This document shows, piece after piece, positions 1,054-49,911 of a stretch of 64,000 bases of DNA; positions within the stretch are counted from its first letter, which is position 1, and every line of letters starts with the position of its first letter. The stretch lies in assembly GCA_900208305.1 (NCBI GenBank), contig OAPG01000014.1, positions 434,001 to 498,000 on the forward strand, written 5' to 3'. The notes below the pieces were generated by a model. It was not told where the DNA came from. It was given only the letters and a program-made list of their open reading frames with translations, and did no database searches. A program made the position numbers and the translations under genes. The stretch comes from Melanopsichium pennsylvanicum. Its lineage: Eukaryota > Basidiomycota > Ustilaginomycetes > Ustilaginales.

Positions 1054-2517
1054 ATGACAACTTCCCTACCTACCAAATCTTCCAACGCTCTGCTCTCGGT
1101 CAACTTTAACCAGGACCATTCCTGCATAGCAGTCGGAACTCGAGATGGTTACAGCATCACCAACTGCGAACCTTTTGGCCGAGTCTATACCAATTCGTCC
1201 GGCCCCACCTCGCTTGTGGAAATGCTATTCTGCACATCTCTCGTCGCTCTGGTTGCCACCAGCGACTCGGATCCAAAGTCTAACGCTTCACCTCGTCGGT
1301 TGCAGATCGTCAACACAAAACGTCAGAGCGTCATCTGCGAGCTCTTGTTCCCAACCGCCATTCTGGGTGTCAAGCTCAACCGTAGAAGACTCGTAGTGGT
1401 TTTGGAACAGGAAATCTACATTTACGACATTAGCAACATGAAGCTTCTTCACACCATCGAAACTAGCCCCAATCCAATGGCCATTTGCGCCCTCTCGCCC
1501 AGTTCCGAAAACTGCTTCCTCGCCTATCCATCACCCGTACCCAGCCCCACCTCGCCTTTTGCCAACACCGCCGGTGCTTCCGCCTCCTCTTCTGCCTCCT
1601 CCTCTTCCAATCTTTCTTCCACCGCTTGCAGTGCGGGAGATGTTCTCATCTTTGATCTACTAAGTTTGAGCGTGACCAACGTCATCCAAGCGCACAAGAC
1701 GTCTATTTCAGCGTTGGCCTTGAATTCCACTGGTACGTTGCTCGCAACCGCAAGTGACAAGGGTACGGTCATCAGGGTATTTAGCGTACCTGCTGCACAC
1801 AAGTTGCATCAATTTCGACGTGGAAGCTATGCAGCTAGGATCTATAGTCTTAGTTTCAACGCCGTTAGCACCTTGTTGGCGTGTTCGAGCGATACAGAAA
1901 CCGTGCACATTTTCAAACTCGGGCCGTCATCGTCGTCTTCCAACAAGTTCTACAGCAGTACTACTGGTGGCGGTGTGGGGAATCTTTCGCCGAGTTTAAG
2001 TTCATTTGATGCGAACAGCGATACGTCGTCATCTCCTGGATCGACCAACAATGGTTCTTCAGCAGGTGGTGCGGGTGGTCGAGCTGGAGGGTATGAAGCG
2101 CTTATGAGCGTTGGTGGTAGTAACAAAAGTCGGAGTGGTGGAAGAAGTGGGGGAATTTCGGGAACTTTACGACGAAGATCGATGGCTTTGGGGAGGGGGA
2201 TTAGTGGTAGTGTTGGAGGATATTTGCCCAATAGTTTGACCGAAATGTGGGAACCATCGAGGGACTTTGCTTTTTTGAAATTACCAACTCAAGGCGTTAG
2301 TAGTGTAGTGGCGCTGAGTGCTACGACGCCTCATGTTATGGTGGTTACAAGTGAAGGTTATTTTTATTCTTATGCTATCGATTTGGAGAATGGTGGAGAG
2401 TGTATACTTCAGAAACAGTATTCGCTGATGGATGGAGAGACAGATAGCAACAACAACAGCAGTAGTAATGCGGGTTCCAAGAATGGTGCTGGCGCTACCA
2501 CTGGCGATTCACTTTGA
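1054..2517 (+). CDS. ATG18: ATG18, PROPPIN-family WD40 autophagy protein
   Basis: A single-exon 487-residue protein, close to the usual length of yeast Atg18. PROPPINs are seven-bladed beta-propellers that bind PI3P and PI(3,5)P2 at the phagophore, endosome and vacuole. Atg18 works with Atg2 in phagophore expansion and in vacuole size control. The diagnostic lipid-binding motif FRRG is at residues 254-257, preceded by blades with clear WD-like repeats (for example around residues 215-245). The late-blade segment [12 protein letters not shown] (about residues 404-415), typical of ATG18/WIPI proteins, is present. Two low-complexity insertions are seen: a Ser/Ala-rich one near residues 170-190 and a Gly/Ser-rich one near residues 290-390. 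The latter corresponds to the long blade-6 loop of PROPPINs. The start ATG has an A-rich context (caaaaATG), and no upstream in-frame Met extends the homology. ATG21 or HSV2 are alternatives within the family, but the size favours ATG18. Confidence 0.92.
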
Positions 2518-12664: not shown

Positions 12665-13660
12665 CTATTCCGCAGACTTGGGGGCTGACGAAGGCCCAGG
12701 CACCAAAGAAGGCTCGAGATCCTCGAAAGGCGAGCGCATAGACCGCACTCGCCGCTGACGATCGAGGTACTCCTCGATCATCGTCAGCACCGGGACTCGC
12801 CGACTGCGAGGCGAAGCGGACCAAATAATACGCATCGCGTACGCCCAGTTCGGGTCCTCCACACCGTTCGAGTCACGGTCGATCCTACGTACCTCTCCCA
12901 ATCCTCGACCTCCCGCTCCCGTGACGTGAGCTCGCTCGACGCCACGCTTGCCTCGATGCAGGTGGCAAGGAGGAGCGTCGCCAGCGTATACCGTCGTCGG
13001 CAACGCCCTCGCAGTTCGCATGCACTTCTTGTGGCCGCCAAGATGGCAGTGCACACAAGCGCGCGGAGTCCTGCCCTTGCCACCGGCAGAAAGTACGTCA
13101 GCGAAAGCCGACGCAAAACAACTGGGACAAAAAAGGGGAGAACCACGGTCAGCAATGCGTATCGAACGGACACGAGTATCGAACGGAGAAGGGAGCAGTA
13201 GTACTTACGGTATACCAAGCTTCGCGCATCGGGCGCATTGCCAGCTTGGCCAAGGCATGCAGCCCTCGGTCAGTCGAAGGAGGACCAGACGATGCAGCCG
13301 ACCGGCCGTCACGGAACCCTCCGATACCTCCCAAGTAGGGGGCCAGGCCTCGCACGCCACGAATACCAGCAACACCAGAGCGATAAAGGACTCCGCCCAC
13401 AGCGCGATCTCGAAGTGGTTTGGCACACGAGGCCCAACGAGCAGAGCGACAGGGTCCTCCCCGGCCTCGCTCACCCTCCCTACAACCGACTCCTCCACCT
13501 CCATTGCCTCCAGCTGCTCTTCCTCCTCCCCTGCGGCATTGCTCCCCAGGAACAACGGCTCCAGTGGTCGCGGCGTTGACCGCAACGCGACGAGCTGCTC
13601 GGCAGCCACGATTTCGATGGGCTGCTCGCCAGCAGCAGGGGACGACAAAGCTGTGGCCTC
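12665..13660 (-). pseudogene. antisense Cys-rich gene of A1, 3' part (cut by element B)
   Basis: Minus-strand gene remnant: partial exon 1 13660-13209, intron 13208-13122 (GTAAGT...CAG, with a pyrimidine tract and a CTGAC branch-like site), exon 2 13121-12665. Splicing restores the motif C-X2-C-X6-C, whose third Cys codon comes from exon 2, followed by C-X2-C-X7-C, as in the intact A3 copy (35576-36696). The start and first ~55 codons lie 28 kb away at 41938-42099, because element B inserted into exon 1. Reading across the B target site keeps the frame, so the gene was intact before that insertion. The function is unknown; the Cys pattern suggests zinc binding. Protein differences from the A3 copy are substantial, including a 7-residue in-frame indel. 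Confidence 0.75.
13656..13660. repeat. target-site duplication of element B (left), GCCTC
   Basis: GCCTC precedes the TGTTACCGG start of the B 5' LTR and recurs after the B 3' LTR at 41933-41937. The second tandem unit has its own left copy at 25112-25116. Confidence 0.92.
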
Positions 13661-24120: not shown

Positions 24121-25116
24121 CTATTCCGCAGACTTGGGGGCTGACGAAGGCCCAGGCACCAAAGAAGGCTCGAGATCCTCGAAAGGCGAGCGCATAGACC
24201 GCACTCGCCGCTGACGATCGAGGTACTCCTCGATCATCGTCAGCACCGGGACTCGCCGACTGCGAGGCGAAGCGGACCAAATAATACGCATCGCGTACGC
24301 CCAGTTCGGGTCCTCCACACCGTTCGAGTCACGGTCGATCCTACGTACCTCTCCCAATCCTCGACCTCCCGCTCCCGTGACGTGAGCTCGCTCGACGCCA
24401 CGCTTGCCTCGATGCAGGTGGCAAGGAGGAGCGTCGCCAGCGTATACCGTCGTCGGCAACGCCCTCGCAGTTCGCATGCACTTCTTGTGGCCGCCAAGAT
24501 GGCAGTGCACACAAGCGCGCGGAGTCCTGCCCTTGCCACCGGCAGAAAGTACGTCAGCGAAAGCCGACGCAAAACAACTGGGACAAAAAAGGGGAGAACC
24601 ACGGTCAGCAATGCGTATCGAACGGACACGAGTATCGAACGGAGAAGGGAGCAGTAGTACTTACGGTATACCAAGCTTCGCGCATCGGGCGCATTGCCAG
24701 CTTGGCCAAGGCATGCAGCCCTCGGTCAGTCGAAGGAGGACCAGACGATGCAGCCGACCGGCCGTCACGGAACCCTCCGATACCTCCCAAGTAGGGGGCC
24801 AGGCCTCGCACGCCACGAATACCAGCAACACCAGAGCGATAAAGGACTCCGCCCACAGCGCGATCTCGAAGTGGTTTGGCACACGAGGCCCAACGAGCAG
24901 AGCGACAGGGTCCTCCCCGGCCTCGCTCACCCTCCCTACAACCGACTCCTCCACCTCCATTGCCTCCAGCTGCTCTTCCTCCTCCCCTGCGGCATTGCTC
25001 CCCAGGAACAACGGCTCCAGTGGTCGCGGCGTTGACCGCAACGCGACGAGCTGCTCGGCAGCCACGATTTCGATGGGCTGCTCGCCAGCAGCAGGGGACG
25101 ACAAAGCTGTGGCCTC
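24121..25116 (-). pseudogene. antisense Cys-rich gene, 3' part (unit 2)
   Basis: Duplicate of 12665-13660: exon 2 24577-24121, intron 24664-24578, partial exon 1 25116-24665, cut by the B 5' LTR at 25117. The same spliced double Cys motif is present. It has no N-terminal partner of its own, since only one copy of the right-hand A1 portion exists. Confidence 0.72.
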
Positions 25117-28954: not shown

Positions 28955-29967
28955 TGTCACGGGAGTGGGTCCCAAGGGAAAGGTCTGCGCAGGGCAGAGA
29001 TGTTGAATCGGCTGAGATCCGGTGGGAGAGCATGTCTCGACGGATCTCAGGGAGATCTGGTGGATATTGGTGGGCTCATGGGATTTAAGGTTAGCGCAGA
29101 ACCGAGAAGTTGAATCGGACAAAATCCGGTGAGAGAGCAGGTCTCGACGGATCTCACGGAAATTTGGCGAGTGGCAGTGACTTGCCGGATATCGAAGGTA
29201 TCGATGGCAAGGGGAGCATCTGCGATGGCGGCAACCAACGCCACGCCGGAACGACACGTGGGCCAATCGACGCCCAGGGGGCAACGGAGAGGGAGCACGC
29301 GGGCGTGCTCGGAAGCACCCTGCCGAAGGACTAGGGGGCAGTCTTATCGTGCGGGGGTCCAAGCTCGACGCACGCAGGTCGTACAGTACCGATGGACCTC
29401 GCACACAATACATATATATATAAATACTCTGTTCCCCGCTATCGGATGAGCGGAAGCTCATCCACTCTATCTTATATCTCAGTCACACATAGTTATCAGT
29501 ACGTCGTACTTACCATACTCTTCACACGTCGCACATCGCAATACCATTTATTGCAATCCATATAGTCTGTGTCCCCGTCGGTGAACGGAGAACAACGTAT
29601 AGACGTCGTCGACACCACAATCGACGCTGTAGCACCTCAACTACAGGCGGAACCTCAACCGCGGGCCTGGCACCACAACCAGTCCCTCATAACTCCACCG
29701 GCAACGACGGCTGAGGTCTAACCCAGCCATCAGCAGTATCCCGTCGACGTCGTGACACTTGCGTCGACCGAATACCCCGTCCGAGCTTGCCGCGTTACCT
29801 CTGTACGGAGTGTCACCAGCGGTCAGCCGATATCCGTCGAGAGATCGCCACTCGCGGGATTCTCTTCGATATCCGTTGAGGCCAAGCTTAACCGCCAGAA
29901 TTCACTGAAATCCGGCGAGTCGCGCTTTCTTGCGGGAATTCGGATCTCTGGCACGCGACCGCTGACA
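28955..29967 (+). repeat. A3 5' LTR (A-LTR copy 3)
   Basis: 1,013 bp. The 5' half shares A3-type variants with copies 2 and 4. From the TATA region onward it is identical to the A1 5' LTR and shares with it several derived CpG losses absent from its own partner LTR. Confidence 0.95.
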
Positions 29968-30007
29968 TTAGAGTGGATCGTACAAGCGACGCCCCAAGTT
30001 CACCAAG

Positions 30008-31378
30008 ATGGCCGAATCTGCACTACATGACAGACTCGACCGCCTCATCGCCCTCCTTGAGCAGCAGCAGGTAGACAATGCCGCCCTCAAGGCTCGGCTC
30101 GACCAACAGGAGACTCCCTCCCCTGGTCGACGAGCTAGGGAGCATGATCTAAGCTCCCCGACCCGTCGAGCCTCGCAGCAGGCGGATGAGTCCTACCTCG
30201 GTGGTCTCGAGACACCCACGCCTGCGACTAGACCACACCCTTGGTCCGTCACCTTCGACATTCTCGACCGACGAGCGTACACCAATCAAGAGAAGTACGC
30301 TACGCCTACTGGACCTCGGTATGTCAAACCGGTGACCCCGGAGGCATGGACCGGCACTGGCAGTGAACAGGACACTCAGCCCCACGCTGCCCTCAAGACT
30401 CCATTCCCCAAGCTCGACACTCGCGACATCGATATCTTCATTCTCGAGGCCGACGCTTGGTTCAAGGCTAATGGTGTGTACGACCATACTTCGATGATCT
30501 TACACACGGCAGCCCAGCTCGAGGGCACCGCTCGAGAGTGGTGGAAGGGTAAGCTCCGCGTCGACCGGCATCGTCAAGGGATGCTCTTCCATGATTGGAG
30601 CCACTTCACCACTCGACTCAGGGAGCTGTACAATCAGCGCAGCGACAGGGTCGATGCCTACAACAAACTCCTAGCGTTGAGGCTTATTACCGACACACCA
30701 GGAGCAGCAACGCGACATGTCGAGCAATTCCGGGACCTGGCAGCTCAGTGCCACATGGAGGACCCTGAGTTTGTCATCGACCTCTTCCGAGGGAGCCTTA
30801 CTCGCTCACTTCAGGAGAAGTTCGAGCGTAACCCACCTGAAGACCAGTGGGCCTGGTACCGGGAGGTCGAGGACATTGATCGCCAGCGTATGCGGCATCA
30901 GCAGAATGCCGTCCGCTTCGCCCCAACCCCAGCAATCAGGACTGCTCATACTGAACCGGGCATTCCCCAGAGAACTGGCTCTCGACCGTTGCCCCCTCAT
31001 CTGGCACAGAAGCTGCCGGTACGGGAAGCACCACCGAGACCTTGCGACGACCGAAGGGTCGTCCCCGGCCCGACGACATTTAACAGCGACGCCTGTAGGG
31101 TCTGCGGCAAGACCGGGCATTGGCAGCGGAACTGTCCAGACGCCAAGCCAACGGTTTACCCGTCTAGACCATCAGGACCACAGATGCGAGCGCACGTGGT
31201 GTTGGAGTCGGAGAAACCACAGGACGGCTCACCAGAGGAAGGAGACGGAGCTGAAGACCATCGCGAAGACGATGGCGGTCTTGAAGACCACTTTGACCCC
31301 AACCTCTTCGCCGACGATCACGACGCAGGCGAGCCCTACCACGAGGACGAGGGAAACGATCTTGGAGCGATGCAATGA
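30008..31378 (+). CDS. gag: Gag polyprotein, element A3
   Basis: 456 residues; one residue differs from the A1 Gag (Asp versus Asn near the acidic tail, a CpG transition). It has the same coiled-coil, capsid domain with REWW, CCHC knuckle and acidic C-terminus. ATGA overlap with pol at 31375-31378. Confidence 0.93.
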   Translation: MAESALHDRLDRLIALLEQQQVDNAALKARLDQQETPSPGRRAREHDLSSPTRRASQQADESYLGGLETPTPATRPHPWSVTFDILDRRAYTNQEKYATPTGPRYVKPVTPEAWTGTGSEQDTQPHAALKTPFPKLDTRDIDIFILEADAWFKANGVYDHTSMILHTAAQLEGTAREWWKGKLRVDRHRQGMLFHDWSHFTTRLRELYNQRSDRVDAYNKLLALRLITDTPGAATRHVEQFRDLAAQCHMEDPEFVIDLFRGSLTRSLQEKFERNPPEDQWAWYREVEDIDRQRMRHQQNAVRFAPTPAIRTAHTEPGIPQRTGSRPLPPHLAQKLPVREAPPRPCDDRRVVPGPTTFNSDACRVCGKTGHWQRNCPDAKPTVYPSRPSGPQMRAHVVLESEKPQDGSPEEGDGAEDHREDDGGLEDHFDPNLFADDHDAGEPYHEDEGNDLGAMQ

Positions 31379-34300
31379 TGGCATGCATCGCTCTAAGACC
31401 GCCTTCGCCATCACCTTGTATATGTCAAGATTGTTCATTATGTTTCTCTGCAGCTTCCGGTGCCTCAGTACTCGAGCTAGCAGGTACGGTCAACCACCAT
31501 CCTGCTAGCATTCTCGCCGACACCGGCGCTGCATTGTCTATAGTTTCAGCTCCGTTTGTTCGCAAGTACTCGATAACCACAAAACCCATAAAAAACAGAA
31601 CCGTACACGGAGTGACCGGACATTCCCTCACGATCACGAGCGCTGCTGACGTCGAAGTAGTCATAGGAGGACAACACCTAGGGATGCTCAAGGTCGCCGT
31701 CGCTGACGCTAGCGACTACGATTTCATCCTGGGGTACGATGAACTACGACGCCTACAGCCAAGGGTCCATTGGGATACTGGACAGCTCAATTTCGGAAAA
31801 ACCAACGAGATCCGGTCAGACGCGGTCGTTCAAGGGATTTCACCGAAATCCGCCGAGACCGGCCGATCTGCCGAATCTCGAGCAAACTTAGTAGTACATG
31901 GCTACGAGTTTGTCGACGCCAACGAGCTCGTTCAGGCGGCACTACGGGATGGCCCCATAGGGGTCATGCTAATCAGCGCTCCTCCGACGTCGCTCCCGTC
32001 GTTTGGCTTTGTCCCCACGGGAGGCGACAAAGGCATAGAGATGGAAACGACACTAGAAGAGCCTCCCACTGCCGTCGAAATCCCAGCCCCGTACTACCCC
32101 CTCAAGGATGTATTCGACGAGGTCGAAGCGGACAAGCTTCCCCCTCACACGAAGCACGACTTGCACATCAAGCTACTACCCAGTTCGACGCCACCTCAAG
32201 GTCCGCTATATCTCAAGGGACCTAAGGAGATGGCCGAGCTGAGGAAGTACCTCGAAGAGAATCTCAAGAAGGGATTCATTTGGCCCTCAAAGAGCCCGGC
32301 GCGATCCCCCGTCCTCTTCGTGCCTAAGAAGGACGGCGGCCTGCGACTCTGCGTAGACTACCGCGGTCTCAACGAGGTCACGGTTAAGAACCGAGCACCA
32401 CTGCCCTTAATCGAGGAGCAGCTGTTCCTCCTACGAAAAGCGAAGATCTATACCAAGCTGGACCTAAAGGCAGCTTACAACTTGGTTAGGATCGCCGACG
32501 GGGACGAATGGAAAACCGCGTTTGGAACTCAACTCGGACTGTATGAGTATCTGGTCATGCCATTCGGATTGGCAAATGCGCCCGCGCACTTCCAATCGCT
32601 CATCAACACCATCTACCGCAACATCATTGGCGTATACGTGGTAGTATACCTTGACGACTTCCTGATCTTCAGCGACAACGAGAGGGAACACATCGAGCAC
32701 GTCAGGACGGTGCTCAGTAGGCTCAAGGTATGGCGGTTATTTGCCAAACTCTCGAAGTGCGTGTTCCATACCAATACTGTTGAGTTCCTCGGCTACATCA
32801 TCAAGCCGTCAGGTATCGAGATGGACCCCGACAAGATCAGGACTATCAAGGAATGGCCGATGCCGGAGTCTATACACGACATCCAACGCTTCCTCGGGTT
32901 CGCCAACTTCTATCGCAGATTCATCTCTCACTTTGCACGTATAGCGAGACCGCTCACTTCCCTCGTTAAGCCCACAGAGCGATTCAAGAAGTTCGACCTC
33001 CCTGACGACGCTCGCGCTGCTTTCCACAAGCTGGTGGAAATGTTCACCACCGCTGGGGTTCTCAAACACTTCGACTACCATCGTCCTACCCGGTTGGAAA
33101 CGGACGCAAGCAACTTCGCTCTCGCTGGAGTACTCAAACAAGAGCACGACGGACGATGGCACCCAATAGCATTCTACTCGCGCAAGATGGCATCGGCGGA
33201 GAAGAACTACGAGATCCATGACAAGGAACTCCTCGCTGTTGTCGTCTGTCTCAACCACTGGCGGCACATGCTTGCAGGACTACCTAGTCAGCTCATTGTT
33301 CTCACGGATCACGAGGCGCTCAAATACTTCAAGTCTCAGCGGAAGATCACAGGTCGGCAGGCTCGATGGTCAGTGTTACTCGCTGACTTCGACTTCGTAC
33401 TCCAATACAGACCGGGAGATAAAGCGGGAGAGCCAGATGCGTTGACACGACAAAGTGATATGCAGCCGACCGCAGAAGAAGACCTCCACAACGTCCGGCA
33501 GCTGTTACCGGCACGAGTATTTGCCGAGGATTTCGAAAACCGCCGAGTGGACTCAACTCGGCGGATTTCACCAAAATTTGCCAAGAAAGAGCTACTCGCC
33601 GAATCTCAAATAAATATGCTAAAGCCAACGATGTCCGATATTGCGGAGGGAGGGCTGGTCCAACTCGTAAAGACTTTCCAGCCGCTCGATGCCGAGCTCG
33701 CAGAGCTTCATCAGAAGCAACCTTTCGAAGTTAGACATGGCCTGTGGTATCACGACGGTCGGCTAGTGGTGCCGCGAGTCACATTACCAGGTAAGAAGGG
33801 TCAACGCAACACTCGGAGTGCCGCCGAAGCAAAGGATCGCTCGCTCTCGGTGGAGCACCTGAGATACATGGTAATGTCCCAATGCCACGACGGCGCTACC
33901 GCTGGCCATGCAGGTCGAGACGCCACCCTCGAGCTCACAAGGCGGCATTATTGGTGGCCAAATATGGCGGCATGAGTTGCTGACTATGTAGCAAGCTGCC
34001 CAGTGTGCGCTCGATATAAAGCACCGCAACACCGACCATATGGCCTTTTGCAGCCGCTGTCGACGCCGTCAAGACCCTGGAATTCCATCTCGATGGATTT
34101 CATTGAAGGGTTACCTAAATCGGAGGGGTATGACTCGATCTTCGTAGTGGTCGACCGGTTGACCAAATATGCCATCTTAACCCCGACGTACAAGACAATA
34201 ACGTCGGAGCAGACGGCAAAGATGCTCAAAGACCAGGTTATGTCCCGTTTCGGGGTACCAGAGCACATTGTCTCAGACCGCGGCCGACAATTCGTCTCGG

Positions 34301-35139
34301 CGGCATGGAAAGAGTTCACCGCCAAGCTGGTCATCCACCACTTGCTCAGCACAGCCTACCACCCACAGACGGATGGGCAAACGGAGCGAGTCAATCAAGT
34401 TGTCGAGCAGTACCTCCGTATGTACTGCAACTACGAGCAGGACAACTGGGTAACCTGGCTGCCGATGGCCGAGTTCGTTTACAACAACACGGTCCACAGC
34501 AGCATAGGAGTCTCGCCTTTCTTTGCTTGCTACGGGTGGAATCCAAAGTCACACCCCAATCTCCCAGAACAAGTCGGTGTGCTTGACCCCAAGAGAAAAG
34601 AGTTTGCCACCCGAAGAAAAGAATTTACGGAGTATCTACAGGAGCAAATCAGGTACGCTCAAAGCCGAACCGTTGCACAATATAACCGCAAACGGAAGGA
34701 CATCGAGTTCAAAGTTGGAGACATGGTCTACGTCAACCGAAAGAACTGGAAGACAGCTCGACCCAGTCCCAAACTCGACACAAGGTTAGCAGGCCTGTTC
34801 CCCATCCTCGAACGAATTGGCAGAAGAGCATACCGGCTCCAACTCCCAGCAAGTTTGCGCGTACACGACGTTTTCCATGTCTCGATGCTCGAGCCTCAAA
34901 GGGCGAGCTCACTCCCACAGCGCTCCACACTCGAAGTCACGCCGCCCCTACCGGACGACACTCTAGAATTCGAGGTAGAGGCTATTGTGGGAAAGCGAAA
35001 ACAGGGTAGGCAAGTGCAGTACAAAGTCCAATGGAGGGGCTACCCCGAGGAGGCAGCCTCGTGGGAACCGACAGACTGTCTCAACTGCCCAGACCTCATC
35101 CGGGAGTATGAGGAATCGGCGGGGGGACGGAGACACTAA
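31375..35139 (+). CDS. pol: Pol polyprotein, element A3, with in-frame UGA (33973-33975)
   Basis: Same architecture as A1 Pol: protease DTG, RT YLDD, RNase H, HHCC integrase finger interrupted by TGA at codon 867, D,D-35-E core, chromodomain. Relative to A1, changes include Ser for Leu near residue 65, Glu for Lys and Arg for Gln in RT, and Asn for Asp twice. In the pol span I counted 20 nucleotide differences from unit 1; 17 are C/T or G/A transitions at CpG. The shared stop means it predates the split of the copies, was spread by conversion, or is tolerated by readthrough. Confidence 0.9.
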
Positions 35140-35575
35140 GCTGAAGAGGATCTTGCGAGCCGCGATGCATGCCATCACAGGAGAGTAAGATGGTGAGAAG
35201 CTCGACAAGGACAAAGCTCGACAAGGACGATGTCAAGCGGCGAAGGTAGAAGGTTGCAGGAATCGAGATCCGGACAATGACCCCGACTCAGGGAATTTCC
35301 ACGAAATCCGCCGAGTACTGCAGAATTCAACGGATCTCAGAGAAAAAATTAAAAAAAATCGCGGGGTAACGAGAACCTAAAAGTCACGAAATTCGCCGAG
35401 GAATGCATGATCCAAAGGATCTCAGGCCTTAATGGGCGATGCGAGTCGACAAGTATATTTCTCAGAGTCGTTGCACCTGTTGCACATCGAAAGTCACACA
35501 ATCAAGCTCACACTAGGTTCAATGGGTAACGAGGCACTGCCATTGCAACAAGTCGACACAGCCAGCGGGCACAGA
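35140..35575. other. A3 post-pol region
   Basis: 436 bp between the pol stop and the antisense gene's stop. It holds cassette-like blocks (GGAATTTCC...GAAATCCGCCGAG type) and an A-rich run near 35340-35360. No gene was seen. Confidence 0.5.
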
Positions 35576-36696
35576 CTACTCCGCAGACTCGGGGGCTAAC
35601 GAAGACCCAGGTACCGAAGGAGGCTCGATATCCTCGAAGGGCGAGCGCATGGACCGCAGTCGCCGCTGACGATCGAAGTATTCCTCGATCGTCGTCAGTA
35701 CTGGCACGCGCCGACCGCGAGGCGAGGCAGACCAAATGATACGCATTGCGTACGCCCAGTTCGGGTCTGCCACACCATCCGAGTCACGGTCGAGGCCACG
35801 TACCTCTCCCAACCCTTGACCCCCCGCTCCCGTGACGTGAGCTCGCTCGACGCCACGCTCGCCTCGATGCAGATGGTTAGGAGGGGCGTCGCCAGCGTAT
35901 ACCATCGTTGGCAACGCCCTCTCGGTTTGCACGCACTTCTTGTGGCCGCCCAGATGGCAATGCACACAAGCGCGCGGAGTTCGGCCCTTGCCACCGGCAG
36001 AAAGCACGTCAGCGAAGGCCGACGGGAAACAACTGGGACGAAAAAAAGGGAGAACCAGAGTCAGCAGCAAGTATCGAACGTAGAAGGGGGCAATAGTACT
36101 TACGGTACACCAAGCTTGGCGCAGCGGGCGCATTGCCAGCTTGGCCAAGGCATGCAGCCCTCGGTCAGCCGAAGGAGGACCAGCCGATGGAGGCGACCAG
36201 CCGTCACGGAACCCTCCGATACCACCCAAGCAGGGGGCCAGGCCCCGCACGCCACGAACACCAGCAACACCGGAGCGATAAGTGACTCCGCCCACAGCGC
36301 AATCTCGAGGTAGTTGGGCACATGAGGCCCAACGAGCGGAGCGACAATCCTCCCTACAACCGACTCTTCCACCTCCATCGCCTCCAGCCGCTCTTCCTCC
36401 TCTTCCGTGGCGTCATTCCCCAGGAACAACGGTTCCAGTGGTCGCGGCGTCGCCCGCAACGCGACGAGCTGCTCGGCAGCAACAATTTCGATGGGCTGCT
36501 CGCCAGCAGCAGGGGACAACGGAGTTGTGGCCTCGAGGCCGGCAGCCGAAAGTGTCGCCACTGCCCGAGTGGCAGGATCTCGTTCGCGAAGTCTGGCGCT
36601 ACGATGCACAGGCTCGTCTGCCCGAAAGGCAGGCATTTGTGTCGACGCTGGTCGCGACGACGCAGCGGAAGTGGCAGTGTTTGAAGTGCTGGGCAT
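35576..36696 (-). CDS. antisense two-exon Cys-rich (putative zinc-binding) protein of element A
   Basis: Minus-strand gene inside the retrotransposon: exon 1 36696-36104, intron 36103-36033 (71 bp, GTAAGT...CAG with a CTGAC branch-like site and a pyrimidine tract), exon 2 36032-35576, giving 349 residues. Domains: a Ser/Ala/Thr-rich N-terminus with a basic RSARLR patch, an acidic stretch, a hydrophobic segment (about residues 125-150), then C-X2-C-X6-C and C-X2-C-X7-C about 20 residues apart. Exon 1 alone ends in a stop right after the second Cys. Splicing supplies the third Cys and opens the frame, which is strong support for the model. A TATA-like TTAAATA on the minus strand (36757-36763) lies about 60 bp upstream of the ATG. 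Its homologue in A1 keeps the frame despite many substitutions and a 21-bp indel. I do not recognise the family. Roles in regulating the element, RNA binding or host interaction are open. Confidence 0.75.
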
Positions 36697-36756
36697 TGTG
36701 ATGTTTTGGGAAACGCTGTTGGTGGAAGAACAAGTCGGGGAAACACCTGCCGACCC

Positions 36757-36763
36757 TATTTAA
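36757..36763 (-). promoter_or_regulatory. TATA-like box for the antisense gene
   Basis: TATTTAA on the plus strand, TTAAATA read on the minus strand, about 60 bp upstream of the antisense ATG (36696). The same sequence occurs at the same distance in A1 (near 42160, ATG 42099) although flanking bases differ. Confidence 0.45.
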
Positions 36764-36786
36764 GCCTCAACGGAGCTCGGCTCTTG

Positions 36787-36798
36787 AAGGGGGGGTAG
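36787..36798 (+). promoter_or_regulatory. polypurine tract of A3
   Basis: AAGGGGGGGTAG abuts the 3' LTR start TGTCACGG, the expected plus-strand priming site. The A1 equivalent is at 42190-42201. Confidence 0.8.
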
Positions 36799-37811
36799 TG
36801 TCACGGGAGTGGGTCCCAAGGGAAAGGTCTGCGCAGGGCAGAGATGTTGAATCGGCTGAGATCCGGTGGGAGAGCATGTCTCGACGGATCTCAGGGAGAT
36901 CTGGTGGATATTGGTGGGCTCATGGGATTTAAGGTTAGCGCAGAACCGAGAAGTTGAATCGGACGAAATCCGGTGAGAGAGCAGGTCTCGACGGATCTCA
37001 CGGAAATTTGGCGAGTGGCAGTGACTTGCCGGATATCGAAGGTATCGATGGCAAGGGGAGCATCTGCGATGGCGGCGACCAACGCCACGCCAGAACGACA
37101 CGTGGGCCAATCGACGCCCAGGGGGCAACGGAGAGGGAGCACGCGGGCGTGCTTGGAAGCACCCTGCCGAAGGACTAGGGGGCAGTCTTATCGTGCGGGG
37201 GTCCAAGCTCGACGCACGCAGGTCGTACAGTACCGATGGACCTCGCACACGATACATATATATATAAATACTCTGTTCCCCGCTATCGGATGAGCGGAAG
37301 CTCATCCACTCTATCTTATATCTCAGTCACACATAGTTATCAGTACGTTGTACTTACCATACTCTTCACACGTCGCACATCGCAATACCATTTATTGCGA
37401 TCCATATAGTCTGTGTCCCCGTCGGTGAACGGAGAACAACGTATAGACGTTGTCGACACCACAATCGACGCTGTAGCACCTCAACTACAGGCGGAACCTC
37501 AACCGCGGGCCTGGCACCACAACCAGTCCCTCATAACTCCACCGGCAACGACGGCTGAGGTCTAACCCAGCCATCAGCAGTATCCCGTCGACGTCGTGAC
37601 ACTCGCGTCGACCGAATACCCCGTCCGAGCTTGCCGCGTTACCTCTGTACGGAGTGTCACCAGCGGTCAGCCGATATCCGTCGAGAGATCGCCACTCGCG
37701 GGATTCTCTTCGATATCCGTTGAGGCCAAGCTTAACCGCCGGAATTCACTGAAATCCGGCGAGTCGCGCTTTCTCACGGGAATTCGGATCTCTGGCACGC
37801 GACCGCTGACA
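36799..37811 (+). repeat. A3 3' LTR (A-LTR copy 4)
   Basis: 1,013 bp, followed by GTACT and then B pol. It differs from the A3 5' LTR at twelve sites by my reading, every one a CpG transition. In the second half it shares states with the A1 3' LTR rather than with its own partner. Confidence 0.95.
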
Positions 37812-40435: not shown

Positions 40436-40891
40436 AAGTACCATAAAACCGCCCCGGATTGCCTTGGGACAAAGCATCGCAAAAGCTAGGTTTGAATCTC
40501 AGACCCGGTAAAACGCGCTGTTTTATCCGAATTCAGTTGAAATCCGATAAAACAACCCTCTGCAGCCGATCTCAGTTGAAACCCGCTTAAAGTGGTAATT
40601 CTATCGGATCTCATACACCGGGGCTGAAAGTGGAAGGCGACGGTTGGCGACGTCACAGGCTTTTCAACACAAACATGGTAAGAAGGAACAAGACATTGCA
40701 ATTACAACATGATACAGGCGAGTCTGTTGCATTAAGATTGCACAGGAGGATCGTGGTGATATAGGAATAGATGATGAAGACCATTGCAAAAGAAGAGTTG
40801 TACACCGAGGATAAGGGCTGGTAGGAGCTAAGTTCTCTGCGCCGCCGGACTTCATTACCTCGCAGGAGCTCGGTTCTTGGAAGGGGGGTAG
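40436..40891. other. B post-pol region and polypurine tract
   Basis: 456 bp between the B pol stop and its 3' LTR. It contains several cassette-type dyads (40490-40625) built from AAAACGC...GTTTTATCCG and GATCTCAGTTGAAACCCG elements. It ends with the purine tract GGAAGGGGGGTAG at 40879-40891. Unlike A, no antisense gene is present here. Confidence 0.65.
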
Positions 40892-41932
40892 TGTTACCGG
40901 AGGTGGATTTCAAACCCGGTGAAACACTGTGTTCTATCGGGTTTCAGGTTGACATCCGCTAGAACACGTGGTTTCACCCGATATCAGTGCAACGCCCTCT
41001 GACAGCCTCCGTCTGGTACAGGAGGCCTGATGGAAGGGTGCAACATGATGTAGGACCGTCCGCTGTGTGTGTCATGGTTGCTGACAGCCAGCACTGGTTA
41101 GCACGGGGCCCAAGCTCAAGGGCGACATGGTTGCTGGCAGTTGGTATTGTTTAACACGGGGCCCAAGCTCGTGGTTGTCATAGTTGAGGGCAGTTGGCAT
41201 TGTTTAACACAGGGCCCAAGCTCGTGGTTGTCATAGTTGATGACAGTCGGCATTGATTAGCACGGGGCCCAAGCTCGCGGACACGTCGAAACTCTGGTGG
41301 CCATTGATACTCTGGTGTACCAGGGTCATAGCAGACAAAGGGGAGCCCCTGGAGGGCCATAGGTATATAAGAACACAGTCTTTACAGTCGTGGAGGAGCG
41401 GGACTCATCCACTCTACTTTATATTAACCCAGTCTTTACTTTACAAGTCGTTATCAGTTACTCAGTATATAGTTCTCGTCAGCAGCTGCAATCATACGGT
41501 ATTGCAGCTATCCAGTGTCTGTGTTCTCCTCAGTATAAGGAGACAAGCTTCATCGACGATTGTCAGCACCATCACTGACACTACAGCACCTCAACTGTAG
41601 GCAGAACCTCAACCGCGGTCACGGAACCTCCACCGTAGCCAATTCATTATCACGACAGCTTCAAGACCATCCGAAGCAGTCCCTGACGGTGACCAACACT
41701 TGCATCAAGAGCACTCGTGCATTGTGAAGGTCTTACAACACACAGACGAGCCGCATTACCTCTGAACGGAGTGTTCACAGTGGTCAGTCAGCTCAAGAGT
41801 CGCGCAGCAGGTCTCATAGCGAAACACGATAGAACCGGCCTGCTTATCAGGTCTCAATCTCAAACACGCTAAAACAGACGGTTTCAGCGGATCTCGGCGC
41901 GAAGCTTGAGTTTGGCACAACGCCCCCTGACA
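40892..41932 (+). repeat. B 3' LTR
   Basis: 1,041 bp, 62 bp shorter than the B 5' LTR because it has one 62-bp tandem unit fewer. I found just two substitutions relative to the 5' LTR, both at CpG. Followed by GCCTC. Confidence 0.95.
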
Positions 41933-41937
41933 GCCTC
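41933..41937. repeat. target-site duplication of element B (right), GCCTC
   Basis: Matches 13656-13660. Beyond it the A1 3' region resumes with sequence homologous to A3 just after the same point. Confidence 0.92.
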
Positions 41938-42099
41938 GAGGCCGACAGCCGAAGGTGTTGTCACTGCCCAAGTGGCAGGATTTTGGTTGCGAAGCCTGGC
42001 GCTACGGCGCACAGGCTCTTCTGCCCTGAGGGCAGGCAGTTGTGTCGACGCTGGTCGCGATGACGCAGCGGAAGGGGCATTATTTGAGTGGTTCGACAT
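41938..42099 (-). pseudogene. antisense Cys-rich gene of A1, N-terminal part
   Basis: Minus-strand ATG at 42099 and about 54 codons (Ser/Ala-rich start, basic RRSARLR patch), homologous to the N-terminus of the A3 antisense protein. It is cut by the B insertion; the rest of the gene is at 12665-13660. A TATA-like TTAAATA lies about 60 bp upstream on the minus strand. Confidence 0.72.
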
Positions 42100-42189
42100 C
42101 TTGACGGTTTAGAAGGTGCTGTTGGTGGAAGAACAAGTCGGGGGAACGCCCGCCGACCCTATTTAAGCCTCAACGGAGCTTGGCTCTCG

Positions 42190-44297: not shown

Positions 44298-47200
44298 TTA
44301 CAAGACGCCTTCAGTCAATCGCTGGTACATATCGTACAACCTCGTAAACGCACTACCTGCACTACTCAGGATCAACCTATCCACAAATTCATCCACTTGA
44401 TTTGCACTTAACCCCAACTGAAACCTATCCCTCAAATTGCTCGCCGTCAACTCACCCAAAGCAAAACACGGCAATTTGGACCCATTGGCCATGAGTTCCA
44501 CCAACATGATGATCCTCTCTGCATGCTTCCTCACATCTTTAAATCCTTGCCTCATCAACTGTTTAAACTCTTCAAATTTTTTACTCTCCAAACCACCCAA
44601 AATGTCAATGTACTCCTGAGGCATTTTGAAAGGTGCTGCTTCGAACCCAACACCTCCTGGCGAGATTCCCAACATGAACCCAAAATCAATGTGAATCAAT
44701 CGACCTTGATTGTCGACCAAAATGTTACCGTTATGACGATCCTTGATCTGAAGCAGATAAGAAATGATAGAATACCCCGCCAACGATTCCATAAATTTGT
44801 GTTGTGCCGCTTTGAAACTGGATGAACCACTAGGTCCATATGCAGCCAAAAAGTGATCGTAAAGAGTATACCCACCGCTCGCTTTATCCTCTTCGCTCAT
44901 CCTGCTATACGCTTCCTTCTTAATGCTGTGGACTGAAACCGCATCCGTGATTGTCTCCATTAAACCACTATTCTCACTCGTCACCAAAATGCGGAAATAT
45001 CGAACCCAACATCGGCTTCCCGTGTCGTTCCAAATCCTTCCAAACTCGTTGATCAGTTGAACCGCAAGTTGCTCCTGTCTCAAATCCGCGCCCGTCTTGA
45101 CAATGACACTGAACACATCCCAATTCGTCAAATGACCATAAGGACTGCTCGATCGAATCCGTTGTTTTTTGGCCGCCCATGATTCGCTAAACATTGCTGC
45201 AGATGGATCGTCCTTGTTAACCGCTCGAAGTACCGCTTCTTCTTCATCTTCCGGCATCCCATTTCCACCACCGGTGACAGTGGTGTTGGCGGCAGCAGCA
45301 GCAGCAGCGGTTGGTCTCCTTTTGGATCGAGTTTGAGAAGTAATGTTGCGAGAACCCGCTTTCATTCGTCTCATACGTTCTTCTTCCAGATTCATCATTT
45401 CTTGCATGATCCTTTTTCGGATCGCTTCCGTCTCGGCGTAAACAAGTCGCGAACTTTGACCTGCTCCACCACCTCCGCCCATAACACCCATCTTTAACGT
45501 TCCACCTCCAATTCGGGCACTGCCGGGATCCATGTTCGTTCGAACATGCGTACTGACACCTGCACTGCCTTGTCCAATCTCACTTTTGTCTCCCGCACCT
45601 CCACCTCCACCGCTGGCAGTGGCAGCAGAAGGGGAGAAAGAGGAGGAGGAAGAGTACCAATTGGTAGGGACGATCCAACTACTCCATCCGCCTTGGGTAT
45701 TGGAAGAGAGGTTGGGCCCATAGTTGAGAATGGCTTGTGATTTGGATGCGTTGGTGGATTTGTTGAGTTGCGAGAGCATGATGGCAGCGGTTCGCATTCG
45801 TTGAGCATATTCATCAAGCGAAAACTCTTTCATGGGACGATGACCTGCAGGAATGTCGGAAGGGGTTGCTGCATCCTTGGAAGGGACAGAAGGGGCATGA
45901 GTCCATGCTGCTGTATCGTGCATTCGATTGCGTGAGGCCAGGTCTTCTTCATCGGAATCAGAAGAGCTGGAGGAACGGTGGCCACCGAATCCGGCGAGAT
46001 CACTGCCATACATCTGTTCGGTCAAGTCGACCTCTTCCGCGTCCTCAGGTGGAATCTCTTGTGTCGAGGATCGGGTCGGTTGCGATTCGGTTAGAGCGGA
46101 GGTGCTGTCGTCTTGGTGCTCGAGGGTGGGAGTGAGCGGTTGAGCAGACACTGGTTTGGAAGCGCCGGTCGTCGTCAAATCTGGCTCTTCCGAAAGAAGC
46201 GTTTGAGCACGCTCATTCGCCGCCTCTTGAGCAGCGTTCTCTGGTGGACCAGTGCGGGTGTCTGTGTCATGATCGCTGACGCCTCGCACTTGCTCGTTTG
46301 CAGACTGAACGAACGAATTCCTGCCAGAGGACTGTGCAACCTTTCTGCGCCTGACATCCTCTTGCGTCACCAACCTTCTGAGCGTGTCCCTGTTTTGCCT
46401 TCTGTCGGGATCGAAATCCAAGTCGTTGTTGAGCACTTCAACGTGCAACAAAAAGGGAACTCGATCCGCCGAGTTCAACACGACGGCTTCGCTGGGGTTG
46501 ATCCTGATCACTCTATGATGTCGCTTGAGCTGGCCGTTTGCATCCTTCTCGTCTGCAGTGCACCAGAGAGGGAAACATACGTCTGCTGGCAACTTGTGAT
46601 TCAGAGCTGTCAACTCTGCTCTGAGTGCTGAAAGTCGTGCTGGTTTGGGGAGCAACAAGAGGCGTGCGGAAATGTCCTCGAGTGAGAGCAGGAATTGGGT
46701 TTGCACTTTGCAATAGTTGGATCGAAGGAGAGAGCGACGCGCTTGCGCATTGTAGAGCGTGAGGATGGCTTCGGTCTTGGCTTCCGACTGGTTGAGGGTG
46801 GAGGAGGAGGCGAAGGCGGAGGAGATGGAACCGCGTGTGGTGACGAGGTTGGGGACGGAGCGAGATGAGGCGGCTTGCTGACCGAACGAGGAGAGTTGGC
46901 GATGCTTTGCAGGTGACCAGGGTGAAGGAGAGGTTTTGGTGGGTTGCTTGGTTTTGGTGGAGGTGGACGGGGCGGAAGGGTTGGTATCGTGCGCCTGACC
47001 GAAGACTTCGCCGACAGCAGCCGCAGCTTTGCCTTTGAAGTCATTGAAGCCGGCATTGAAGCCCGCAGCGAAGGTTGCAAAAGGATTGTCGAGTTTCTTG
47101 GAAGAATGAGGTGCAGGCAAGGAACCACCTGAAGTGACTTCTTTGTTAGTGGAAGACGAGGTGTTTGGAGTTGTTGTGGGACGATCTTTTGGCGGTGGAA

Positions 47201-47442
47201 GGGGAGCAGAATCGGATCTGGACATGGATACAGAGGAAGTTGCGTACTTGACCAACGAGCCTGCAAGTGATGTCAAACTGGACTCTTTGGGCTGAGCTTC
47301 TGGAGCAGTGATTGACTGTGTATGTGGTGCGTTTCGAGAAGACATTTCGTTTAGCGAATCGGTGTCGGAGCTGTCGAGTGGGTCTTGTTCATGGCTTGCA
47401 CCGTATACATCCGAGTCGTGTTCGTTGACCTCATCATCATCG

Positions 47443-47476
<34 letters not shown>

Positions 47477-48167
47477 GTTGGTGTTCGGCGTCCGCTTTGG
47501 CATCAGGGAGTGAGTGTTGCATGGCGTTGGGCGGGTGTCTAGCTTGTTCGATGGCAATGGATCCTGTGATGCTGGCCAAATGTGGCATGGCTGGGACGCT
47601 GGCCATGATGGAACCGATGGCCACAATGTTTGGCAGAGGAGTGTGAGGCGAGACCTTGTGGGATCCTAAGCTGGTAGCAGCTACAAGTAGGCGTTGAAGG
47701 CTGTTTTGAAGCAAGTTGGAGTTGGAAGGGCCGGGTGGACTGTGAGTTGCAGCCGCACCAAGGGCGTAAACGGCGTTGGGAGAGGAGAGTGGATCTTGAA
47801 AGAGGATGCGCTGGCACTGGTTGAAGACGCGATGGCAGATGTGGAAGGAGGGAGTGTGAGGGTGGTTGGAGAGGTCGGAGAGAGCCGCCTGAAAGTACCA
47901 TAGCGTTAAAAGGGCGACGTGAACGGACTGATTGCATCTTCTTAGGATGAAGCATTCGAGTGCACGAGATTCGGATGGTTTTGTGATTAGGAGGTGACAT
48001 AACTGTGGCCAGTAGAATTCGACTTGGTCTGAAGGGAAAGCGGATTCGAGTTGGCTGACGAGGTAATAAGTGATGCCAATGTTATCCGAGTAAGTGCGAA
48101 GGTAGGATAGGGCAAGGTGTGGGGAAAAGTAGTCTGAATGGAACAGACGAAGAAGGAGGCTGGCCAT
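44298..48167 (-). CDS. PIK1: PIK1, phosphatidylinositol 4-kinase (type III beta)
   Basis: A single-exon protein of 1,289 residues from the ATG at 48167. An in-frame ATG at 48245 would add 26 residues, but similarity to yeast Pik1 begins with the MASLLLRLF stretch. The N-terminal lipid-kinase-unique helical domain has the Pik1-like SDNIGITYYL near residues 28-37. A long Ser/Thr/acidic linker follows, with a run of 14 Asp at about 232-245. The C-terminal PI3/4-kinase domain has the catalytic loop DRHNGN at 1143-1148 and DFG at 1161-1163. Pik1 makes PI4P at the Golgi (with frequenin/Ncs1-type partners) and in the nucleus, and is essential in yeast. The kinase domain is complete to its C-terminal helices. 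The intergenic region upstream is shared divergently with TRA1. No frameshift or CpG decay is seen although the transposon nest begins about 1 kb beyond its stop. Confidence 0.95.
47431..47476. repeat. (ATC)n trinucleotide repeat in PIK1
   Basis: A nearly pure ATC/GAT array with one interruption (GTC). It encodes the poly-Asp run in the PIK1 linker and is likely to vary in length between strains. Confidence 0.85.
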
Positions 48168-49911
48168 GATTCCAAACGAGCTCGATTCGAAGCGAGAAAG
48201 CCAACACTTTGTGATTATGATACGAGGACGAGGGGCTGCCCTCAATTTGGACTATGATATGGTTGTATGAATGTTGGACGGCATGAAGCGTGGCTGATAG
48301 AATTGTGATGAATTGGACGTAGGGTGAGATCACAATCAGCGCACAAATTGGTATTACATGCCACAGTTGATGAAAGTGAAGCTGGATAGGTGTGGAAGTT
48401 GTGAATTGGTTGAACAGCAAGATACCAGGTAACGAGGCTAATGATGCGATTGAGGACAAGCAAGGAAAAGAGGTGAATGAGAGCAAGTATGCAGGTATAA
48501 ACCAGATTCAAAAGACACTGAAAGGAGATGGAGGTTCGGAAACCGGAGTTTCAACAAAGGGAGAGGATGAAGCCGACATTGTTGATCGTTGGTTATGGCT
48601 TTGATCGCTTTAGTTTGAGTAGTATTCTTATTAATAATTATTCATATAGTGTTACTGTACTAGCTTGAATTCTCAGCCGCCAAATCCAACACTCAAACCC
48701 ACAAATGCACGCATCCACGTACGCACCCACTCACTCTAACCAACCAGCAACGCGCATTCTCCAAACACTGAGACATTTCAATAATCATCAATTGAAACCC
48801 ACTTTGCTTTGAAAATAGTTTTAGTCAATAATTACAGCATAGTATATTAAAATATAACATACAATTTACATTCTATTTTCCAGGGCAAGGCTCTCTTTTT
48901 CTAATTTTTAATTTTTTTAGAAAATGTTAGACCGTAATTGACTGTATACTATCTTGTAATATTCTTTTCAAATTAATTTTACTTTCAAATTACAATTTAC
49001 AGTTGGTTCTGCGCTTGGTTCACGTGACGAAAGGTGTCAAAGGGATACCTGTCAAGCCGGCTGTCCAAATTGGCCAAATTTACCCCCAATTAATTCGCTT
49101 CACCTTTTGGCATCCACCCCCGCCCCCGCTTTGTTTGCTCGTCTTCCATATGGCTATTCACAACTACACCAGCACAATGTAAATAACTTACTCTCTCTAC
49201 CCTGAAATGAATGAAATGTGGTGCTAACATGACAGAATCGCAAGCCGTGCCGTGAGCGAAAGCGGCGTGAATGCTTCTGAAGTCGCAAGGCTATTCATAC
49301 GCATTGGGCGACCAATTGATGTGCTTAAAAGGAATCTAACAAACCTGTTTCATCAAAATTCCTCAAGGTTACTGCAGTAACCGTCGCTCTTGGGCGTGGT
49401 GTCGAAAAGCTGCCCTCTTTGACATCCACCACGCACTTACTTATTCTTCTTCTTCTTTGTGTTCACCTAGCATCATCCACATTCTACACACGCTTTCAGG
49501 CTCATCATCATCATAGTTTAACCTCATCGTAAACCTCATTGCGCCCCCGAGCTACCTATCGGTCAGTCAGCCACCGCAATCACACCCAACCACTTGAATC
49601 CAGCCAAGCTCGCAATTTCTTCCAAACTTCCACAGTGCGAGTTGGTATCCGCTTCCACATGCTCCTCTGAATGTAAAGTACTCTACAATACATCCTGTTT
49701 TCGTGCCGTGTCGACCGTTTCAAACACTAACTTCATCCGCAATTAGTCTACTCTTGGCTTTGCATCCAAAGCACACCAACAACTCTCATGCGCGCATAAT
49801 CTCGTACCGTATCCCATCTGTGCTTCGACTTTACCACTTCACACCATCGCTCGTCTCCTCGATTTGCATCTGCTACCATCAGCTTGCGCTCCATCGCCTG
49901 CACTCCTCACT
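48168..49911. promoter_or_regulatory. divergent promoter region PIK1 / TRA1
   Basis: 1.74 kb between two divergent essential genes. AT-rich around 48630-48980, with a palindromic CACGTGAC (E-box / Cbf1-type site) at 49021-49028 and a short C-rich block near 49117-49130. A long C/T-rich stretch (about 49430-49900) leads into the TRA1 start, like the leader of ATG18. No tRNA or other RNA gene was recognised. The factor binding is inference. Confidence 0.5.

Follow-up and report, generated by a model that had tools for sequence, protein, structure and literature searches.

Background

Some LTR retrotransposons of plants carry an antisense ORF in addition to gag and pol. The antisense ORFs of Grande (gene23), RIRE2 and Retand (TRP28) are placed between pol and the 3' LTR and are found in most copies, according to the parts of PMC7264820 and PMC11963269 available to us; in the same parts gene23 is reported to be nuclear and to have its own promoter, and TRP28 is predicted to bind DNA. 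Retand is described as a non-chromovirus lineage. In fungi, the accessible portions of PMC7264820 and PMC8365987 name brtn as the antisense gene of Boty-like LTR retrotransposons in Botrytis cinerea. The function of the antisense extra genes of LTR elements is called undetermined in the available part of PMC7264820. The words "antisense" and "opposite strand" are absent from the portion at our disposal of PMC3248453, on LTR retrotransposons in fungi, and "antisense" and "opposite" from that of PMC2864245.

We analysed a stretch of 64,000 nucleotides (the window) from the smut fungus Melanopsichium pennsylvanicum (Basidiomycota, Ustilaginales), in which a first-pass annotation had proposed a spliced antisense gene within a chromovirus. 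Our analysis suggests, with a probability of about 80% for the explanation as a whole, that this is an accessory gene of smut-fungus chromoviruses whose product is most likely a nuclear nucleic-acid-binding factor. Limited literature searches found no description of this gene family, and its relatives in the databases carry names such as "uncharacterized protein".

Results and discussion

Element A and its antisense gene

Element A extends over 28955-37811 with GTACT at both outer flanks as the target-site duplication. It is a chromovirus (chromodomain Ty3/gypsy), as seen from the RT preceding the integrase, the chromodomain at the integrase C-terminus, the LTRs and the target-site duplication. 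Its features are as follows.

28955-29967, + strand: 5' LTR, 1013 bp, 98.8% identical to 36799-37811 by blastn
30008-31378, + strand: gag ORF, 456 aa, Pfam Retrotrans_gag (4.1e-06) and zf-CCHC (3.3e-05)
31375-35139, + strand: pol frame with protease, RT, RNase H, integrase and chromodomain, Pfam RVT_1 (1.5e-35), rve (6.2e-16) and Chromo (1.5e-14)
35576-36032, - strand: exon 2 of the antisense gene, 457 nt including the stop
36033-36103, - strand: intron, phase 2, 71 nt, GTAAGT...CTGAC...CAG, with the branch-like CTGAC at 36064-36060
36104-36696, - strand: exon 1 of the antisense gene, 593 nt, ATG at 36696
36757-36763, - strand: TATA-like box TTAAATA, 66-68 bases upstream of the ATG in 29/29 gene-spanning copies
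36786-36798, + strand: GAAGGGGGGGTAG, abutting the 3' LTR and presumably the polypurine tract, a likely role given general knowledge of LTR elements
36799-37811, + strand: 3' LTR, by blastn against the 5' LTR

The antisense gene runs on the opposite strand, in the space left between pol, which ends at 35139, and the 3' LTR, which starts at 36799. We re-derived the two exons, the intron with its canonical splice sites and branch-like CTGAC, and the 349-aa product, all as the first-pass annotation had them; the unspliced frame ends at a TAA inside the donor GTAAGT. Its claim that splicing completes the first Cys triplet and leads to a second one is also right in the spacing, as C189-X2-C192-X6-C199 is complete only after splicing and is followed by C220-X2-C223-X7-C231. 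The conserved motif of the protein is C-X2-C-X6-C-X18-20-C-X2-C-X7-C. There is a predicted helical part and a basic N-terminus, which reads HRSAR in the window copy and RRSAR in family B and several A copies. The public model at this locus, MEPE_05218, has 297 aa and resembles the window product minus an internal block of 52 residues; it removes the stretch from C150 to C192, while the models of other copies have 349 or 356 aa. Opposite the gene lies a sense ORF of 165 aa (35816-36313).

The TTAAATA box sits inside GGCTTAAATAGGGTCGG, which has two sites in the window vs a mean of 0 in 100 shuffles. A box of this kind had been noted upstream of two ATGs, and it is present at both, but the distance is about 67 bases rather than 60, and the second ATG belongs to a separate remnant and not to the homologue in unit A1. 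That homologue had been said to keep the frame; a similar gene is indeed there, but only from codon 55 to the end, with no start codon beside it. The further pieces in the window are the following.

12668-13660, - strand: A1 homologue from codon 55 to the last codon, lacking the 5' part, with an intron of 87 nt (tblastn)
24124-25116, - strand: A2 homologue, same extent as A1, 87-nt intron (tblastn)
41932-42099, - strand: gene-copy remnant, codons 1-56, with its own TATA-like motif at 42153-42169

The simplest reading of the split between A1/A2 and the remnant is that element B was inserted at about codon 55. In the window's own B copy the antisense gene is gone except for its last bases (40436-41001), and at this deletion junction the two flanking matches overlap by 17 bases.

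Several other observations were made on the window. The region 6043-42948 is nested and tandem, with LTR-bearing units spaced 11456 bp apart, A inserted into the RT of element B, and B apparently inserted into the antisense gene of A. The near-identity of the units at this spacing could be an assembly effect. The gag and pol frames overlap by 4 bases (gag end 31378, pol ATG 31375), which suggests stop-restart translation of pol, and the pol of this copy has a single in-frame TGA (33973-33975). Two host-like ORFs flank this region: 44298-48245 (- strand), which we take to have a PI-kinase-like C-terminus, and 1054-2517 (+ strand), presumably akin to Atg18-type WD-repeat proteins.

The gene in other copies of element A

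A genome search with the gene gave at least 41 matching rows, 39 of which were examined (37 fetched stretches and two inside the window); two rows on C9 had no fetched sequence, and with one window remnant added the set came to 40 sequences. In total 29 of them span the gene from start to stop, including the window copy (L009), and the 11 partial ones were left out of the counts. The ATG and the acceptor AG are present in all 29 gene-spanning copies, and the donor GT (one copy has AT) and CTGAC in 28 each. Exon 2 has 457 nt in 29/29 copies, exon 1 has 593, 605 or 614 nt, and the intron varies from 70 to 93 nt. Its splice signals exist in the antisense direction only, and the sense genomic RNA would retain it, in agreement with its presence in 29/29 copies.

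The reading frame is well preserved in these copies. No exon frameshift was found in any of the 29, and the exons have only two distinct gap intervals (9 and 21 nt); there are 12 in the intron, 8 of them not multiples of three, and four upstream and one downstream of the gene, all five not multiples of three. Internal stops are absent from 16/29 copies, and the other 13 have one or two, all TGA save one TAG, so the family does not exhibit the disruption in most members that had been considered a possible argument against the gene. Seven of the eight Cys codons are kept in 29/29 copies, and C220 in 28/29.

A set of copies collected by means of the gene says nothing about the number of elements that are without it, and we therefore also searched with the integrase part. 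This gave at least 40 rows, i.e. 34 full-length matches at 97-100%, one partial match, and five at 71% which belong to other families. By hand comparison, with all counts being lower bounds, 31 of the 34 full-length A-type matches are accompanied, on the opposite strand and no more than 1 kb away, by a match to the gene; in four of the 31 (A1, A2, C15:443 kb and C9:734 kb) the gene is partial. Two more (C7:658 kb and C11:444 kb) have a gene match about 9 kb away. For the full-length A-type integrase at C3:436-1572 there is no nearby gene match among the matches listed; it is either an A copy without the gene or one whose gene the search overlooked. Over 20 long loci, the integrase frame adjoins the gene in 19 and an LTR does so in all 20.

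Selection on the antisense protein

The pooled pairwise Nei-Gojobori dN/dS over the 29 copies is 0.281 (95% bootstrap over codons 0.217-0.359), a descriptive value as the pairs are non-independent and the copies recombine. A value near 1, which the first-pass annotation had regarded as telling against the gene, is thus not observed. Constraint differs along the protein: dN/dS is 0.69 (0.43-1.20) at residues 1-60, where it is weak, 0.22 (0.15-0.32) at 61-180, 0.116 (0.042-0.247) at 181-240 with the Cys core, and 0.28 (0.18-0.45) at 241-349.

For comparison between frames and proteins we used the 11 of 20 long loci in which every piece except the 5' LTR was found at the required 95% coverage. 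In these 11 copies the gene frame has a dN/dS of 0.31, vs 0.91 and 1.44 in the shifted antisense frames and 0.98, 0.42 and 1.51 in the sense frames; the values for gag, pol and the integrase part are 0.29, 0.21 and 0.34. These numbers indicate that the gene is under constraint at the protein level, with a strength close to that seen in gag and the integrase part. Judged from the sequences, it is almost certainly a selected protein-coding gene of the element.

Divergence between copies

Unexpectedly, the copies differ from each other about three times more in the gene than in gag, pol or the LTRs. In the 11 copies the mean pairwise difference is 0.018-0.022 in gag, pol and the integrase part and 0.027-0.028 in the LTRs; it is 0.037 in the interval that separates pol from the gene, reaches 0.075 within the gene itself and is 0.056 in the stretch directly upstream. 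The synonymous differences amount to 0.144 for the gene vs 0.039-0.056 for gag-pol. In the approximately unbiased test on 16 copies the gene tree and the gag-pol tree reject each other, with p values of 4e-115 and 1e-53. The 1000 replicates were too few according to a warning of IQ-TREE, but the log-likelihood gaps are 762 and 331. Copy L017 is a visible mosaic. Of 12 consecutive bins of 100 columns, seven show 8-15 differences from L012 and 0-3 from L025, and the remaining five show 0-2 from L012 and 5-13 from L025. Because the trees reject each other and L017 is a mosaic, old gene alleles recombining among young, nearly identical backbones would fit the data better than a raised mutation rate. 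Balancing selection, capture from an older lineage and locally raised mutation could all contribute to this divergence island.

The internal stops also show a pattern. Codon 254 is TGA in 8/29 copies, at a CGA codon, and these copies are scattered over the gene tree. At 13 codons eight or more copies read CGA or TGA; these codons have 12 TGA between them, eight of which fall at codon 254, and this clustering was unmatched in 20000 uniform draws. The stop may come from a CpG hotspot, from recombination or from selection for a short form that keeps the Cys core.

Homologous genes in other elements and in Ustilago

A genome search with an Ustilago relative as the query found a set of diverged homologues beyond family A. 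A second chromovirus, B, lies at C4:384000-399500 inside the gag of an A element, with end repeats of 1090 bp that are 99.6% identical, a gag and an internally deleted pol. Its homologue, of 439 aa and two exons, is antisense to pol and placed between pol and one of the end repeats:

L046, 5973-6817: exon of the B homologue
L046, 6818-6888: intron
L046, 6889-7363: exon of the B homologue

The alignment of B comprises six copies, without L054, which had been fetched as well. The frame is open over 439 codons in three of the six, and the Cys spacing is seen in three, although not the same three. A third family, C, has a homologue with several in-frame stops at L052, and in L055 its pol, 59-71% identical to those of A and B, lies on the opposite strand. 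The intron is at the same place in A, B and C, after ...IP (...VP in the window copy) and before the third Cys. The identity between families A and B is about 40% for gag and 60-71% for pol, and the core of the gene has 39%. The B set plus C has a dN/dS of 0.49 in frame vs 0.91 and 1.06 in the shifted frames. C181, which is outside the shared core, is absent from B and C.

In a protein search with the spliced product, uncharacterized proteins of M. pennsylvanicum ranked first. Related proteins were found in seven named taxa: Ustilago sp. UG-2017a (one entry being a cluster of 75 sequences), U. trichophora, U. hordei, U. nuda, U. tritici, U. bromivora and UG-2017b. The two best compared relatives share 42-43% identity with family A across 208-212 residues. 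No genus other than Melanopsichium and Ustilago is named among the matches listed, two of the searches having scored about 8000 candidates only. Among 32 proteins with a PW-[ST]-W signature, 17 show C-X2-C-X6-C-X18/20-C-X2-C-X7-C (linker of 20 in five and of 18 in 12); the other 15 are without the six-Cys spacing, and several of these are truncated or differently spliced models. The comparison with Ustilago was made at the protein level. In P0032 (Ustilago sp. UG-2017a) and P0077 (U. bromivora), from clusters of 15 and 1 sequences, the relative is fused to a different N-terminal protein; the models may have been joined wrongly, or a host gene may have acquired the domain.

Possible function of the antisense protein

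Pfam gave no convincing match for the antisense protein and its relatives (best E 0.06), and fold searches gave no reliable match, the Cys region being modelled at low confidence. TRP28 (PF04195) is absent from the Pfam matches listed at E up to 10. The fungal Zn2Cys6 cluster Zn_clus (PF00172) matches the whole protein at E 3.5 (8.3 bits) and 4/33 homologues at best with E 2.7, and the first Cys triplet aligns to the second half of its profile. We took the cores of five homologues and submitted forms with swapped halves for four of them (A, Ustilago sp. UG-2017a P0026, U. trichophora and B). Only family A matched Zn_clus in the swapped form (E 0.063, 13.8 bits), in a longer but weak alignment, compared with E 0.13 and 12.8 bits over half of the profile when unswapped; the unswapped cores of U. 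trichophora and B and the shuffled controls of A, U. trichophora and B gave none. Membership in Zn_clus by Pfam was rejected, as the scores stayed below the curated cut-off of 21 bits in every test. There is a hint that the Cys core may correspond to the Zn2Cys6 halves in swapped order.

We propose the following mechanism. The chromoviruses of smut fungi almost certainly have this gene as an accessory gene of their own, in antisense orientation downstream of pol, with a conserved promoter-like box between its ATG and the 3' LTR; it would be transcribed and spliced in the antisense direction, and the sense genomic RNA would carry the intron unspliced through retrotransposition. The six-Cys motif would most likely bind zinc, and the protein would enter the nucleus, bind DNA or RNA there and thereby regulate the expression, integration or silencing of the element that encodes it. 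A nuclear nucleic-acid-binding role is the most likely one in view of the position of the gene, the basic N-terminus, the Cys core and the precedent of Grande gene23 and TRP28. That the protein is a regulator of this kind is a tentative proposal, which we hold at somewhat below even odds, and we would doubt any assignment to one particular step among expression, integration and silencing.

The allelic divergence pattern hints at an interaction with something variable. We speculate, as a long shot, that the antisense gene could encode a specificity factor whose divergent alleles are kept by diversifying or frequency-dependent selection and exchanged and recombined among the near-identical backbones, its six-Cys core being a permuted relative of Zn2Cys6. 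If so, the protein would decide between self and non-self among elements, e.g. by limiting copy number or excluding sister elements, or would track a changing host repressor. Tests of function are favoured by the dozens of natural copies in a small fungal genome, the three element families and the Ustilago relatives; the intron would make antisense transcripts unmistakable in RNA-seq, and the Cys motif is well defined.

Alternative explanations

The locus might work through RNA, i.e. a transcript from the box at 36757, complementary to the 3' genomic RNA, would limit retrotransposition by interference or small RNAs and the ORF would be incidental. The layout is convergent with pol, such a role for antisense transcripts of LTR elements is discussed in the available part of the review PMC7264820, and RNAi genes are reported in Ustilago bromivora in that of PMC5106213. 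However, the selection at the codon level, the in-frame-only gaps of the exons and the amino-acid conservation between genera point to a protein, so that we consider the RNA explanation improbable, even though protein and RNA roles can coexist. Slightly less probable still is that one element picked up a host gene not long ago and transports it as a passenger with no function for the element. The intron of the spliceosomal type, a product unlike any Pfam retroelement protein family and a few matches named after host genes ("related to Mig1 protein", "related to monocarboxylate permease"), some with short coverage, would agree with such a capture; but the named sources of the 72 profile matches listed (best 7992 candidates scored) are all Melanopsichium or Ustilago, and three element families bear the gene beside pol with the intron in the same place. 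An ancient capture of a host gene is compatible with these observations.

A protein that counters chromatin- or RNA-based repression by the host, its divergence being the outcome of an arms race, has a somewhat better standing, and we regard it as unlikely rather than far-fetched. The divergence island with its mosaic alleles and the weakly constrained residues 1-60 are what it would lead one to expect. On the other side, dN/dS for the whole gene stays well under 1, and the high synonymous divergence speaks for old alleles and not for fast protein change. We give hardly any credence to an artefact in which the frame is open by chance opposite another coding frame. One sense frame does have the low ratio of 0.42, and the 165-aa sense ORF could be taken for such a coding frame, but the three sense frames have 2 to 10 stops each in the seven copies displayed out of the 29, the ratio of the antisense frame is lower, and relatives in another genus keep the Cys codons. 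Our preferred explanation hence continues to be an accessory protein gene of the element.

Comparison with known systems

The brtn gene of Boty-like elements, reportedly described by Zhao in 2011, is the fungal case that the first-pass annotation omitted when it rightly pointed to antisense genes in some plant gypsy elements. Botrytis is an ascomycete and the host here is a basidiomycete; brtn and the smut gene are alike as antisense extra genes of LTR retrotransposons, and Botrytis is not among the named sources of the 30, 72 and 36 relatives listed. The plant antisense ORFs differ from the smut gene in their plant hosts, in the non-chromovirus lineage of Retand and in TRP28, which has no match in the smut protein. 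The Cys core resembles the fungal Zn2Cys6 cluster in having two C-X2-C-X6/7-C triplets but differs from it in the order of the triplets and in the linker of 18-20 residues. The zf-CCHC of the gag of element A is Cys-rich as well, but it has another spacing, is encoded on the other strand and has no match in the antisense protein.

The smut gene shares several traits with the antisense additional ORFs (aORF-3R) of LTR retrotransposons. It is antisense to pol and placed between pol and the 3' LTR, it is found in most copies (at least 31 of the 34 A-type integrase matches), and its constraint is like that of the other element proteins (dN/dS 0.31 vs 0.21-0.34), with a raw divergence about threefold higher. 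Antisense transcription from an own promoter has been shown for some members of the class, and a conserved TATA-like box is seen here. Antisense extra genes at this place are known from plants and from Boty of Botrytis, and what appears to be new is the family in the chromoviruses of smut fungi.
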